From Nitrospiria bacterium (GTDB lineage: Bacteria > Nitrospirota > Nitrospiria > JACQBZ01), in the NCBI GenBank assembly GCA_035498035.1, contig DATKAN010000038.1, forward strand, positions 1 to 64,000: 64,000 nucleotides of DNA, read 5' to 3'. Positions 14,854 to 26,572 of the stretch are shown piece by piece. The translations under genes were made by a program, and so were the position numbers. Every line of letters starts with the position of its first letter. Positions within the stretch are counted from its first letter, which is position 1. Under the pieces are notes generated by a model. That model saw only the letters and a program-made list of their open reading frames with translations, did not search any database and had not been told where the DNA came from.

Positions 14854-15638
14854 AGGAGTCTTCCGGCCCAAAGACCTCCCGTTCGGACCCCCGGGATAAA
14901 GCAGACCGCATCTTCGGCATCCATCCGCTGATGGAGGCGCTTCAGGGGGAGCGGAGCGTCGAGCGCATTTATATCGCCAAAGGACGGGGCGGGGGCGCCG
15001 TGGAAGATCTGATCCGGCTTGCGCGATCCAAGGGCGTGCCGCTTCATTTTGAGCCCCGCGAAGTCCTCGACCGTATCGTCGGCAGCACCAAACATCAAGG
15101 CGTCATGGGTCTGGTCGCGGCCAAGGCGTACGGGACGCTGGATGCGATCCTGGAGCGCGCCTCGAAACAAGGGGAGGCGCCGGCCGTTCTGGTGTTGGAC
15201 GGCGTGGAGGATCCGCGAAATCTCGGGGCGATCTTACGGACCGCCGACGCGGCCGGATTCCACGGCGTGGTCATTCCGCAGCGCCGGGCGGCCGGGCTGA
15301 CCGAGACGGTGGCCAAGGCCTCGGCCGGCGCGCTCGAGCATGTCGCCGTGGCCCGCGTCGTCAATCTGACCCAGGCGCTTGAAACCTTGAAGGCGGCGGG
15401 GCTGTGGATTTACGGGCTGGACCCCGGCGCGGAGAAAAATTATCTGGAGATCGATTATCGCGGGCCGGTCGCGATCGTCGTCGGCGCGGAGGGGGGAGGC
15501 ATCAGCCGGCGGGTGCTGTCGGGCTGCGATGAGCGCGTCCGTCTGCCGATGAAGGGCCGGGTGGCCTCGCTGAATGTCTCGGTGGCGGTCGGCGTGATGG
15601 CCTACGAAATCCTCCGCCAAAGGACGCCCCGTCCATAA
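14850..15638 (+). CDS. rlmB: 23S rRNA (guanosine-2'-O-)-methyltransferase RlmB (SpoU/TrmH family)
   Basis: Knotted SPOUT methyltransferase that modifies a conserved guanosine of 23S rRNA. The N-terminal substrate-binding domain (IFGIHPLMEAL) and SpoU motifs VEDPRNLGAILR, GAEGGGIS and PMKGRVASLNVSVA are present over 262 residues. It starts with GTG overlapping the cysS stop by 4 bp, a common cysS-rlmB coupling. TrmH-type tRNA methylation cannot be excluded from sequence, but the extra N-terminal domain favours RlmB. Confidence 0.92.
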   Translation: MKESSGPKTSRSDPRDKADRIFGIHPLMEALQGERSVERIYIAKGRGGGAVEDLIRLARSKGVPLHFEPREVLDRIVGSTKHQGVMGLVAAKAYGTLDAILERASKQGEAPAVLVLDGVEDPRNLGAILRTADAAGFHGVVIPQRRAAGLTETVAKASAGALEHVAVARVVNLTQALETLKAAGLWIYGLDPGAEKNYLEIDYRGPVAIVVGAEGGGISRRVLSGCDERVRLPMKGRVASLNVSVAVGVMAYEILRQRTPRP

Positions 15639-15815
15639 GAGAGGGCCCGTTTGACCGAGCCCTCCCTGCTCCGGCGGCTTTTGTTTGACCCGGCTAAGGC
15701 TCGGGCGCTAAATTATGCGAAGGTAAGGCGCGAAAAATTTGCCCGACGTGGGCGGGCCGCGTCCTTCGCCAAGCCGGGGACCCAAACAAAAGCCGAGGTC
15801 GCAGTCCGGGCTGAG

Positions 15816-15989
15816 TCAAACAGGCGCACCAAGAGTCATTGTCGGAATGAGGCCTGAAGCCGGAGGGTGAGAGAGCCGGCCATGCGCTCGAGGACAATTT
15901 AAGATCCAAACCACTCTAGGGGATGCAGTAACGGCTGCGTCCCCGGACAGACGTAATCCGAAACAAGACTCGATCTCCCTCGGACGCAT
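15816..15989 (-). CDS. Possible 57-residue protein inside interspersed element, copy 1
   Basis: A 57-codon frame (MRPREIES start, APV end) lies within the repeat element here. The diverged copy at 24905-25078 preserves a frame of exactly the same length, with about 27 of 57 residues identical and several differences at synonymous third positions (ACT/ACG, ATC/ATT, CGA/CGG). The shared core carries DAAVTAS and VVWIL. The frame stays open further upstream to 16034. No ribosome binding site is obvious and no family is recognised, so it could be a fortuitous frame in a structured repeat. Confidence 0.3.
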   Translation of the reverse strand: MRPREIESCFGLRLSGDAAVTASPRVVWILNCPRAHGRLSHPPASGLIPTMTLGAPV

Positions 15990-16040
15990 ATGGGCAGCGA
16001 AAGAATCCTTCGGCGAAGGCCTCAAACCCGGCACACGGTC
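15838..16040. repeat. Interspersed ~200-bp element, copy 1
   Basis: Aligns along its length with 24925-25135. Shared blocks include GAGGAC plus a TTAA-rich segment, ATCCAAAC, a strong hairpin (GGGATGCAGTAACGGCTGCGTCCC), CCCTCGGACGCATA and GAATCC near the end. The copies differ at many positions, so the family is old, yet the spacing is kept. It lies between rlmB and a convergent lipoprotein gene. No transposase or terminal repeat is seen. Confidence 0.6.
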
Positions 16041-16078
16041 ACGTCTGGAAAGGTTCGGTTTAACAGGTAACCTATCAG

Positions 16079-23279: not shown

Positions 23280-24089
23280 TCATTTTGCGTCCGGCCGGGG
23301 GGCGCGGCGGAGCCGTTCCTCCCGATCGGAATCGACCTCCGAAAGTCGGAGGCCGAATCGGGTGAACGTCTCGCGGATTCTCGTCACGCAGCGAAGGGCC
23401 AGCTCCGGCTCCTTTCGGTCCTCGTAGATGTCGGCCAGGCCCCTCAGGGCCTCGGCCTCCCCCGAGGGGTTTCCCACCTGGCCGAAATGGGTGTAGGAAT
23501 AGTTGAAACAGGTCTCGGCCTTGCGGTCCTTCCCCAGCTGGCGATAGGCGCGGCCGAGCTGGCCCCATGCGGCGGCCAGGCCTTCCTCGTTGCCGGTTTT
23601 TTTGTGGAGATCGATCGCGCGTTTGAGAAATGAAACCGCCTCGCCCGGGCGCCGGCCGTCCATTTCCAGCAGCCCCAGATTTCCGTACAGCAAGCCCAGG
23701 GAGAAGTCGTCCCGGACGGACCGGAGCAGCTCCTCCGCCTCCAGATAATAGGCGCGCGAACGTTCCGTCTCGCCGAGCTCCCTCGACAGGTTGCCGAGAT
23801 TGACCAGGGTCTGGCCCGCCAGACGCTCGTCCGGATTCATTCGCAGCTGTTCCAGGACTTCCCGATAGAGGGACCGGGCCCTTTCCTTTTCATTCAACGC
23901 GGCATAGACGTTTCCGAGGTTTCCAATCACGGCCGCAAGCAGCCGCGGGTTGTTTGATCCCCGGACTTCCTCCCGCGCGGTCTCAAAACATCGACGCGCG
24001 CCCTCCAGGTCCCCCCGGTGGAGGAGCAGGGCCCCCTGAACATAGGCGGCCGGAAAACTTATAGCGCCGCTGTCCGATTCGTTTGGCAT
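23280..24089 (-). CDS. Tetratricopeptide repeat protein
   Basis: All-helical protein of 269 residues consisting of at least five TPR units (for example GNLGNVYAALNEKERARSLY, GNLGLLEMDGRRPGEAV and GQLGRAYRQLGKDRKAE). TPR proteins act as protein-interaction scaffolds. No signal peptide or catalytic domain is visible. It follows the DUF72 gene on the same strand after a 23-bp gap, so they may be cotranscribed. Nothing in the sequence names a partner. Confidence 0.8.
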   Translation of the reverse strand: MPNESDSGAISFPAAYVQGALLLHRGDLEGARRCFETAREEVRGSNNPRLLAAVIGNLGNVYAALNEKERARSLYREVLEQLRMNPDERLAGQTLVNLGNLSRELGETERSRAYYLEAEELLRSVRDDFSLGLLYGNLGLLEMDGRRPGEAVSFLKRAIDLHKKTGNEEGLAAAWGQLGRAYRQLGKDRKAETCFNYSYTHFGQVGNPSGEAEALRGLADIYEDRKEPELALRCVTRIRETFTRFGLRLSEVDSDREERLRRAPRPDAK

Positions 24090-24112
24090 CCGATTCCAAT
24101 CCGCCGGTCTGT

Positions 24113-24859
24113 TTACAGCGCCATCAGCGTTCTGATCATCTTCGCATTTTGGACGGCGTAGCCGTTGAGCGTGTTGTTGAAATAGACATGGACCGTCTTA
24201 CCGTCGTCTAAAAGCGGCCGGATTCGCCCGGCCCAGGCCCGGAGTTCTTTATCGGAATAGCGAGAGGCAAAAAGGTCCCCGGGGCCGTGAAATCGGTAAT
24301 AGACGATGTCGGCCGTGACCTCCTCGACGCAGGGGTAGCGGGAGGATTGGGCGATGCAAAGCGTGGCCCCGGCCTCACGCAGTATCGAATAGGTCTTCTC
24401 GGTAAACCAGGAGGCATGCCGGAATTCGAAAACCGGGTGAACCGGGGACGGGGAGGAATCCTTCCGCAGGAGATCCAGGAACCGGGACAGTCTTTTCCAG
24501 TCGGCGCGAAACCCCGGAGGGAACTGCAGCAGCACAGGGCCCAGGCGCCCTCCCAACGTTCGCGCGCCGTCCGAGAACTTTTTCCATGATTTTCCCGCTC
24601 GAAAGAGTTTCTGGATATGGGTGATATAACGGCTGGCCTTGACCGCAAAAAGGAAGTCCTCCGCGACGGCCCCGGCCCACTTTTGGTAGGTCGAAACCTT
24701 CGGGAGGTGATAGAAGGAATAATTCACCTCGACCGTATCGAAATGCTTTGCGTAAAACGCCAGGCGGTCCTGAGTCGCCTTGACCCCTTCCGGATAGAAC
24801 AGCCGGTCCCATTCCCCGTAAGCCCACCCCGAAGTTCCGACGCGCAAGCGCGGTTTCAT
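24113..24859 (-). CDS. DUF72 family protein (YecE-like)
   Basis: TIM-barrel-like DUF72 protein of 248 residues. Recognised from the opening VGTSGWAYGEWDRLFYP, the conserved HFDTVEVNYSFYHLP, VLLQFPPGF and the C-terminal VYFNNTLNGYAVQNA. The family is widespread in bacteria, and its biochemical activity is not established. It is transcribed away from the interspersed element and radA. Confidence 0.9.
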   Translation of the reverse strand: MKPRLRVGTSGWAYGEWDRLFYPEGVKATQDRLAFYAKHFDTVEVNYSFYHLPKVSTYQKWAGAVAEDFLFAVKASRYITHIQKLFRAGKSWKKFSDGARTLGGRLGPVLLQFPPGFRADWKRLSRFLDLLRKDSSPSPVHPVFEFRHASWFTEKTYSILREAGATLCIAQSSRYPCVEEVTADIVYYRFHGPGDLFASRYSDKELRAWAGRIRPLLDDGKTVHVYFNNTLNGYAVQNAKMIRTLMAL

Positions 24860-24904
24860 ATCTTCCTCCGAGCGTATAAGATGAACACATTCCTGCGGCG
24901 GGTG

Positions 24905-25078
24905 TCAAACAATTCCGGGGGTTCCTTGTTTCCGTACATGACCCGAAGGCCAGGGGTGGAGAAACCGATCGGGCGCCCGAGGACGAATTAAAATCCAAAC
25001 GACCCCCCGGGATGCCGTAACGGCTGCGTCCCAGGCCCATCCGAACCCGCCCGGGATCCCAATCCCCCTCGGACGCAT
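24905..25078 (-). CDS. Possible 57-residue protein inside interspersed element, copy 2
   Basis: Frame of 57 codons (MRPRGIG start, GIV end, TGA stop), the same length as the frame at 15816-15989, without insertions or deletions between them. Both keep DAAVTAS, VVWIL and PRA. The frame stays open upstream, where DS-containing residues also align with copy 1. No convincing ribosome binding site and no known family. See the entry for copy 1 for the evidence for and against coding. Confidence 0.3.
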   Translation of the reverse strand: MRPRGIGIPGGFGWAWDAAVTASRGVVWILIRPRAPDRFLHPWPSGHVRKQGTPGIV

Positions 25079-25135
25079 AGGATCGGTGACGGAATCCCTT
25101 GTCGAGGGCCATGCATCATCCGAGGCAGCGGGTGT
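24925..25135. repeat. Interspersed ~200-bp element, copy 2
   Basis: Diverged copy of the element at 15838-16040, in the same orientation. The hairpin GGGATGCCGTAACGGCTGCGTCCC and the block CCCCTCGGACGCATAGG are the best-kept parts. Together with its flanks it fills the 348-bp gap between the DUF72 gene and radA; apart from this element I see no gene there. Confidence 0.6.
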
Positions 25136-25207
25136 TTCGGCGGGTTGATTTTCAACCCCCGATGGATTATGATAAGCCTTCTCACCTCTTTAATTGACCG
25201 GTGAATT

Positions 25208-26572
25208 ATGCCCCGTTCCAAAACGTCGTTTGTTTGCCAGAACTGCGGTTATTCTTCCCCGAAATGGCTTGGAAAATGTCCGGACTGCGATCAATGGAAC
25301 AGCCTTCAGGAGGAGTCGGCGGTTCCGGCCGCGGCGTCCCGCTGGATGGCCTCGAATCGGGAACCGCAGAAGCCCCGGCCGATCGGCGAGATTCCGCAGG
25401 CGGCGGACGATCGTTTCAGCACCGGGATGGGAGAGCTGGACCGTGTCCTGGGCGGCGGGGTCGTGGCCGGCTCGATGGTGCTCATCGGCGGCGATCCGGG
25501 CATTGGTAAATCGACGCTGCTTCTCCAGGCCTTTCAAAAGATCAGCCGGGATCGGCCGGTACTTTACGTCTCCGGAGAGGAGTCGCCGCACCAGATCAAG
25601 ATGCGCGGGGAGCGCCTGGGCGTCGATTCCAGGAACCTGCTGATCCTTTCCGAGACGTCGCTGGAAGAAATATTGAAAACCGCCCAGTCGATGAGGCCCC
25701 GCGCGATCGTGATCGATTCGATCCAGACGGTTTACACCGCCCAGATCACCTCCGCGCCCGGAAGCGTCAGCCAGATCCGGGAATCGGCGGCCCAGTTGAT
25801 GGTCCACGCGAAACAGACCAACACCCCGACGTTCCTGGTCGGCCATGTCACAAAGGACGGCTCGATCGCCGGTCCGCGCATCCTGGAACATATGGTCGAT
25901 ACGGTGCTTTATTTCGAGGGAGACAAGGGGCATCCGTACCGGATCCTCCGGGCCGTGAAAAATCGCTTCGGCTCGACGAACGAGATCGGCGTTTTCGAGA
26001 TGAAATCGCTGGGCTTGGAAGAGGTCTCGAATCCCTCCGAGCTGTTTTTGAGCGAACGGCCGTCGAACACGGCCGGCTCGGTGGTCGTCTCCAGCATCGA
26101 GGGGACGCGGCCGATCCTGGTGGAGTTGCAGGCGCTGGTCAGCCCGACCAATTTCGGACTGCCCCGACGCATGGCGATCGGCGTGGACCCCAACCGGGTT
26201 TCGCTTCTTCTCGCCGTCCTGGAAAAACGCGCCGGGCTGCAGCTCCAGGGACAGGATGTCTTCATCAACGTGGTCGGGGGAATGCAGATCGACGAGCCCG
26301 CGGTGGACCTGGGGATCGTGGCGGCCGTCGCGTCGGGGTTCCGGGAGCGGCCGCTGGATCCCAAGATTCTCGTGTTGGGCGAGGTGGGGCTGGGGGGAGA
26401 GGTGCGCGCGATCCATCAACCCGAGGTCCGGCTTCGGGAGGCGGCGAAGATGGGCTTCAAGCAATGCCTGTTGCCGGAGCGGAACCGGGCGCGGCTGAGC
26501 GGCGTCGACGGAATCGATTTGATCGGCATCGGGACCCTCCGCCAAGCCCTGGAGAATTTATTTGGAAAATAA
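25208..26572 (+). CDS. radA: DNA repair protein RadA (Sms)
   Basis: RecA-like ATPase and branch-migration helicase acting on recombination intermediates. Domains in order: N-terminal C4 zinc finger (CQNCGY...CPDC), Walker A GGDPGIGKST at about residues 94-103, the RadA-specific KNRFGST motif near 256, and a C-terminal Lon-protease-like domain (VGGMQIDEPAVDL). The 454 residues are standard. ATG 25208 gives the usual N-terminus. Only a weak ribosome binding site is visible. Confidence 0.97.
   Translation: MPRSKTSFVCQNCGYSSPKWLGKCPDCDQWNSLQEESAVPAAASRWMASNREPQKPRPIGEIPQAADDRFSTGMGELDRVLGGGVVAGSMVLIGGDPGIGKSTLLLQAFQKISRDRPVLYVSGEESPHQIKMRGERLGVDSRNLLILSETSLEEILKTAQSMRPRAIVIDSIQTVYTAQITSAPGSVSQIRESAAQLMVHAKQTNTPTFLVGHVTKDGSIAGPRILEHMVDTVLYFEGDKGHPYRILRAVKNRFGSTNEIGVFEMKSLGLEEVSNPSELFLSERPSNTAGSVVVSSIEGTRPILVELQALVSPTNFGLPRRMAIGVDPNRVSLLLAVLEKRAGLQLQGQDVFINVVGGMQIDEPAVDLGIVAAVASGFRERPLDPKILVLGEVGLGGEVRAIHQPEVRLREAAKMGFKQCLLPERNRARLSGVDGIDLIGIGTLRQALENLFGK

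Follow-up and report, generated by a model that had tools for sequence, protein, structure and literature searches.

A dispersed palindromic element of Nitrospiria with a plus-strand fold kept by compensatory change

The locus and its repeated element

The window, meaning the whole 64,000-nucleotide stretch of DNA analyzed, belongs to the genome labeled G000 here, with G001 and G002 as congeners. Two copies of a structured element lie in it (Table 1): copy 1 is joined to a second palindromic repeat, module 1, in a composite insertion, and copy 2 is flanked by a DUF72 gene and a gene that we take to be radA. An earlier note had described two diverged repeats at these places, and they are real, the DNA match between copies 1 and 2 (E = 5e-14) being far beyond chance. 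The genome-wide BLAST with these copies that it proposed was run on the window's own genome and found a third copy on contig C19 (E = 2e-15); a fourth, on contig C49, was found with a covariance model. Six copies from a single family went into model R1, and 16 copies into model R2.

Table 1. Coordinates of features in the window
Feature	Positions	Strand	Remarks
Composite insertion, module 1 + structured element	15637-16075		Empty syntenic site in congener G002
Module 1, palindromic repeat joined to copy 1	15649-15823		Ends CCCGTTTGACCGAGCCC ... GGGCTGAGTCAAACAGG; bounds set by eye from the inverted ends
Frame of copy 1, MRPRE...GAPV*	15816-15989	-	57 codons; by-product, no gene
Structured element, copy 1	15851-16022	+	172 nt, full-length covariance-model match; R1 190 bits, E 5.9e-34; R2 172.5 bits
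5′ arm of closing stems P1 + P2	15851-15868	+	Partner ~16006-16022; from consensus structure and pair counts
5′ arm of inner stems P3 + P4	15875-15893	+	Partner ~15978-15998; from consensus structure and pair counts
Apical hairpin P5, GGGGATGCAGTAACGGCTGCGTCCCC	15919-15944	+	Hairpin of the earlier note
DUF72 gene	24113-24859	-	Neighbor of copy 2
Frame of copy 2, MRPRG...PGIV*	24905-25078	-	57 codons; by-product, no gene
Structured element, copy 2	24940-25111	+	R1 161 bits, E 2.7e-28
radA (presumed, by eye from its domains)	25208-26572	+	Neighbor of copy 2

The plus strand of the element folds over ~172 nt into stem P1 (GGCCC/GGGCC), stem P2, a purine-rich 6x6 internal loop (for example GGAGGA/GACGGA), stems P3 and P4, and the apical hairpin P5, which is flanked by conserved unpaired bases (AAACCAC on the 5′ side and GGNCAnnnGUAAA-like on the 3′ side). 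The strong hairpin reported earlier is real, but it is just one helix, P5, of this larger fold. The element ends in AGGCC...GGCCT, without TA, and its GC content is 53-67%. Since the folding energy of single sequences is unremarkable (z ~ -1), the evidence for structure is comparative. A scan of the window with Rfam release 15 at the gathering score matched only a tRNA and nothing at the element, and a permissive Rfam scan of five copies gave nothing at the element positions.

The minus-strand reading frame

The two copies carry 57-codon frames on the minus strand; as had been described, these align without an indel, share 27 of 57 residues, end at the same TGA codon and both retain DAAVTAS and VVWIL. 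Some of the differences are indeed synonymous (9 codon changes, versus 30 that are non-synonymous). On this basis the earlier note had offered two explanations: a small protein family traveling in a repeat, or RNA structure that preserves the spacing by itself. It had named stops or frameshifts in further copies, and substitutions without third-position bias, as the observations that would count against a protein, and both were found. Two in-frame stops interrupt copy 3, from the window's own genome, and one of these falls within the VVWIL motif; the copies in genomes G006 and G004 have two stops apiece inside the frame; the G004 copy has a one-base insertion and the G001a copy a one-base deletion. 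Differences between copies 1 and 2 fall on codon positions 1/2/3 in the ratio 19/21/26, showing no third-position bias, and a Pfam search of the frame gave no match. The preservation of a 57-codon frame in two copies speaks for a protein, but the stops, the indels, the codon-position pattern and the lack of a domain match rule it out, and we give it next to no chance.

The length of the open frame is the chance expectation: of first-order Markov sequences with matched composition and a length of 245 bases, 94% have one of the six frames open for 57 codons or more. The DAAVTA motif is encoded by the complementary strand of the apical hairpin, and the frame's start codon sits in the conserved P4 helix. 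The frame would be the passive outcome of fixed helix spacing together with stop-poor, G+C-rich sequence; it is a by-product of the fold and not a gene. A conserved fold can mimic a small conserved protein on the opposite strand, which is a trap for small-ORF annotation.

Covariation and the folding strand

Structure as the keeper of the spacing is supported by strong covariation, on the strand opposite to the frame. In an alignment of 16 copies, 90.4% of cells hold standard pairs and both sides change in 33 of 45 pairs. Doubly changed cells that are still paired, counted as the covariation check proposed for the hairpin, number 117 versus 38 in shuffled alignments (0 of 500 shuffles reach 117), and pairing collapses to 44% when this alignment is slid by one base. 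The 16-copy alignment was derived from the covariance model and is fitted to the structure; two controls on other alignments agree. Nine copies of family f1, aligned by sequence only with MAFFT, are 92.6% paired and have 43 double changes versus 13.8, and six copies from genome G010, aligned and folded independently, yield the same architecture and 18 double changes versus 6.5.

Over the helices of 22 copies, G-U pairs outnumber A-C mismatches by 89 to 17 (binomial p = 6e-13 on the simplifying, and untrue, assumption of independent cells). This asymmetry marks the plus strand as the one that folds. The plus-strand fold is kept by compensatory change between copies and, at one site, in place. 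The asymmetry is also compatible with a folded single-stranded DNA intermediate, and a role in DNA only, with the hairpin needed by a mobilizing enzyme or by such an intermediate and no role for RNA, is the main rival explanation, which we consider unlikely. A G-U excess of this size is typical of RNA, though single-stranded DNA might yield part of it, and the internal loops and the unpaired flanks of the apical hairpin are also conserved between families; both points speak against a role in DNA only.

Insertion, composites and ends

Copies lie dispersed at non-orthologous places, leave empty sites in relatives and have no coding capacity. Synteny with congener G002 holds around copy 1, but the insert is missing there, BLAST joining positions 15636 and 16075 of the window to positions 1784 and 1780 of locus L095. 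Copy 4 sits after the stop of an ABC ATPase gene and ahead of the start of the matching permease gene; this junction is short and empty in G002, G003, G004 and G005. In being non-coding, dispersed and inserted the element resembles a MITE; 19-bp terminal inverted repeats, such as a MITE would share with an autonomous IS, occur in G010 only.

The insertion at copy 4 is little more than the folded unit. Complete G010 copies measure 238-248 bp and have 19-bp terminal inverted repeats (CTTGCCCACCCCCAGTTTT); one of them combines these repeats with a perfect 10-bp direct repeat (gttgtttttt), and other sites show no clear duplication. The coincidence of element ends with stem ends, the terminal repeats and the single target duplication all favor a hairpin that serves DNA only. 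A search of G010 for its terminal inverted repeats found short non-coding copies and fragments only, and no autonomous IS. Since every copy lacks an ORF of its own, movement would depend on outside help, from an enzyme of the host or of an IS.

In G001 the ABC junction is also occupied, but the element points the other way there and a 36-nt arm fragment comes before it. The two occupants (G000 C49:6088-6257, L117; G001 C42:1980-2151, L119) are 61% identical and share a P5 subtype. The element may have been inverted in place, or the site may have taken up an insertion more than once.

Module 1 is a separate repeat of ~150-175 bp with the core GGCTCCGGCGGCTTTTGTTTGACCCGGCTAAGGCTCGGCCGCTAAATT, present in ~15 copies at 70-88% identity in G000; it was located at 15649-15823 of the window and on contigs C25, C21, C65, C19, C23, C53, C58, C7 and C57. 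A composite in G006 is 83% identical to that of copy 1 over 367 bp and lies beside different genes, and at copy 3 module 1 adjoins the element but is inverted.

The copy 1 site in G001 (C34, L096 1741-3588) holds a 1.85-kb insert that was considered as an autonomous version of the element. Judged by eye, it contains instead a disrupted aldo-keto reductase frame, a gene for a short-chain dehydrogenase and one of carboxymuconolactone-decarboxylase-like type; at its end lies what is left of the module 1/element linker, inverted. At 23334-25140 of the window, ~1.8 kb comprising the DUF72 gene, a second minus-strand gene and copy 2 is absent from syntenic G002, where ~40 bp is left. In G010, a second repeat (GTCATTGCGAGCGAAGCGAAGCAATCTCGCCA type) adjoins or replaces part of truncated copies (L107, L114), and a match to the element's terminal repeat is closely followed by a sequence that resembles, by eye, a cobalamin riboswitch (C27, L110 ~1560-1800).

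Distribution

Model R1 gave full-length matches in G000 (4), G001 (4), G004 and G006, and in G010, a genome of a different family; G004 and G006 have single copies and belong to the same family as G000. Model R2 raised G010 to 12 copies (2 partial) and added G036 and G042, two genomes of a third family with one copy each. Carriers make up 7 of the 147 genomes of the class in the drawn sample, a patchy distribution with 1-12 copies each. All belong to the class Nitrospiria, and the two that are named are Nitrospirae/Nitrospiria groundwater MAGs. A separate sample of 396 genomes of the phylum, searched with a stricter first filter, added zero carriers; as only a few candidates in each genome were scored in the wide searches, absence in distant genomes is provisional. 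Plasmid and phage records had no match to the copy 1 composite or to one G010 copy, and IMG/VR had none to the apical motif. Exact pattern matches in Pseudoxanthomonas and Paenibacillus fail the covariance model and are probably due to chance.

The copies have no consistent neighboring gene, and several overlap gene ends or sit a few bases away. Such a pattern bears on another explanation, a stand-alone, domesticated regulatory RNA gene that was multiplied by duplication and has a host function (e.g., protein binding) rather than a selfish one. All three families conserve the internal loop and the apical region, which would suit a gene of this kind, as would compensation in place. The patchy occurrence, the variable copy number, the inconsistent neighbors, the empty sites in close relatives and the lack of a recognizable promoter argue against it, and we regard it as improbable enough to carry little weight.

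Compensatory change at an occupied site

In G036 and G042 the element occupies one shared, vertically inherited site, the gap between a gene that by its sequence we take to be uvrA and an M28 peptidase gene (M28 protein 95% identical). Identical positions in the gap number 48/51 on the outer side of uvrA, 41/79 in the spacer and 136/165 in the element (82% versus 52% in the spacer). Both sides of a pair have changed in two adjacent P1 pairs (U-A to G-C and C-G to A-U) and in one P5 pair (A-U to U-A). These three double changes were read from the pairwise alignment and replace a count of seven from the covariance-model alignment, which was misregistered there. Together with conservation above that of the spacer, they suggest selection after insertion, which tells against a hairpin serving DNA only. 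As the minimum-energy folds of the two copies share only 36 pair columns, with 19 pairs of either broken in the other, the case for selection on the fold at this site is suggestive and not decisive.

To our knowledge, it is an old observation that bacterial palindromic repeats (ERIC and YPAL among them) fold and carry chance reading frames, but selection on the fold has rarely been demonstrated. The divergence within the present family (35-95% identity) is large enough for a count of compensatory changes, to which a strand signature and a single in-place case are added; this makes testable whether the RNA of a mobile palindrome is functional.

Interpretation

We favor, with a probability of about 0.68, a palindromic element that is mobile but not autonomous, codes for nothing and experiences selection on its folded plus strand, probably as RNA; functionally it would be like YPAL and ERIC. 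The element, ~172 bp long (~240-250 bp with the extra terminal inverted repeats of one relative), would have spread in some Nitrospiria to sites between genes or next to them. What selection would act on is the single strand in its folded state, most probably RNA within read-through transcripts, where the fold could be a stem-loop that affects termination, processing or stability of the neighboring mRNA, and/or serves the element's own mobility. A scan for promoters and terminators gave nothing convincing: there was one weak promoter-like site, which lies outside the element, and no terminator on the plus strand. The lack of a promoter is in keeping with a palindrome that acts only as DNA. A stronger version, a class of mobile structured RNA not described before in which the RNA fold itself (stems, purine internal loop and conserved apical junction) is the unit under selection, both needed for spreading and retained by hosts after insertion, seems unlikely; for spreading, the RNA fold could then serve a reverse transcriptase, or some other RNA-directed mobilization enzyme, as substrate.

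Comparison with known repeats

YPAL/RU-2 of Yersinia (168 bp; PMC2229807, PMC2759123) is nearest to the element, by a likeness of properties alone that implies no membership. Both are ~170 bp, form a long hairpin, are not A+T-rich and lack TA ends (the element has 172 nt, 53-67% GC and GGCC ends), and both lie in intergenic positions or beside genes with empty and filled sites. YPAL has a 56-codon open frame running through it, no TA ends, and target duplications of variable length (3-26 bp) (PMC2229807). The present element differs in belonging to another phylum and in its lower copy number. In PMC2229807 and PMC2759123 the word 'compensatory' is absent and selection on the fold of YPAL is not claimed.

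ERIC/RU-1 resembles the element as an imperfect palindrome that is intergenic, spread across genera and open in chance frames, but it is 127 bp long with TA termini (PMC2229807), versus 172 nt and AGGCC...GGCCT. REPs, at 20-40 bp (PMC3733652), and NEMIS, with 24-bp TIRs and TA ends (PMC2229807), are also unlike it. Transcripts of NEMIS have been proposed as RNase III substrates (PMC2229807). BIME/REP mosaics and Correia/NEMIS share with the element the joining of distinct palindromic modules, here with module 1 in either orientation.
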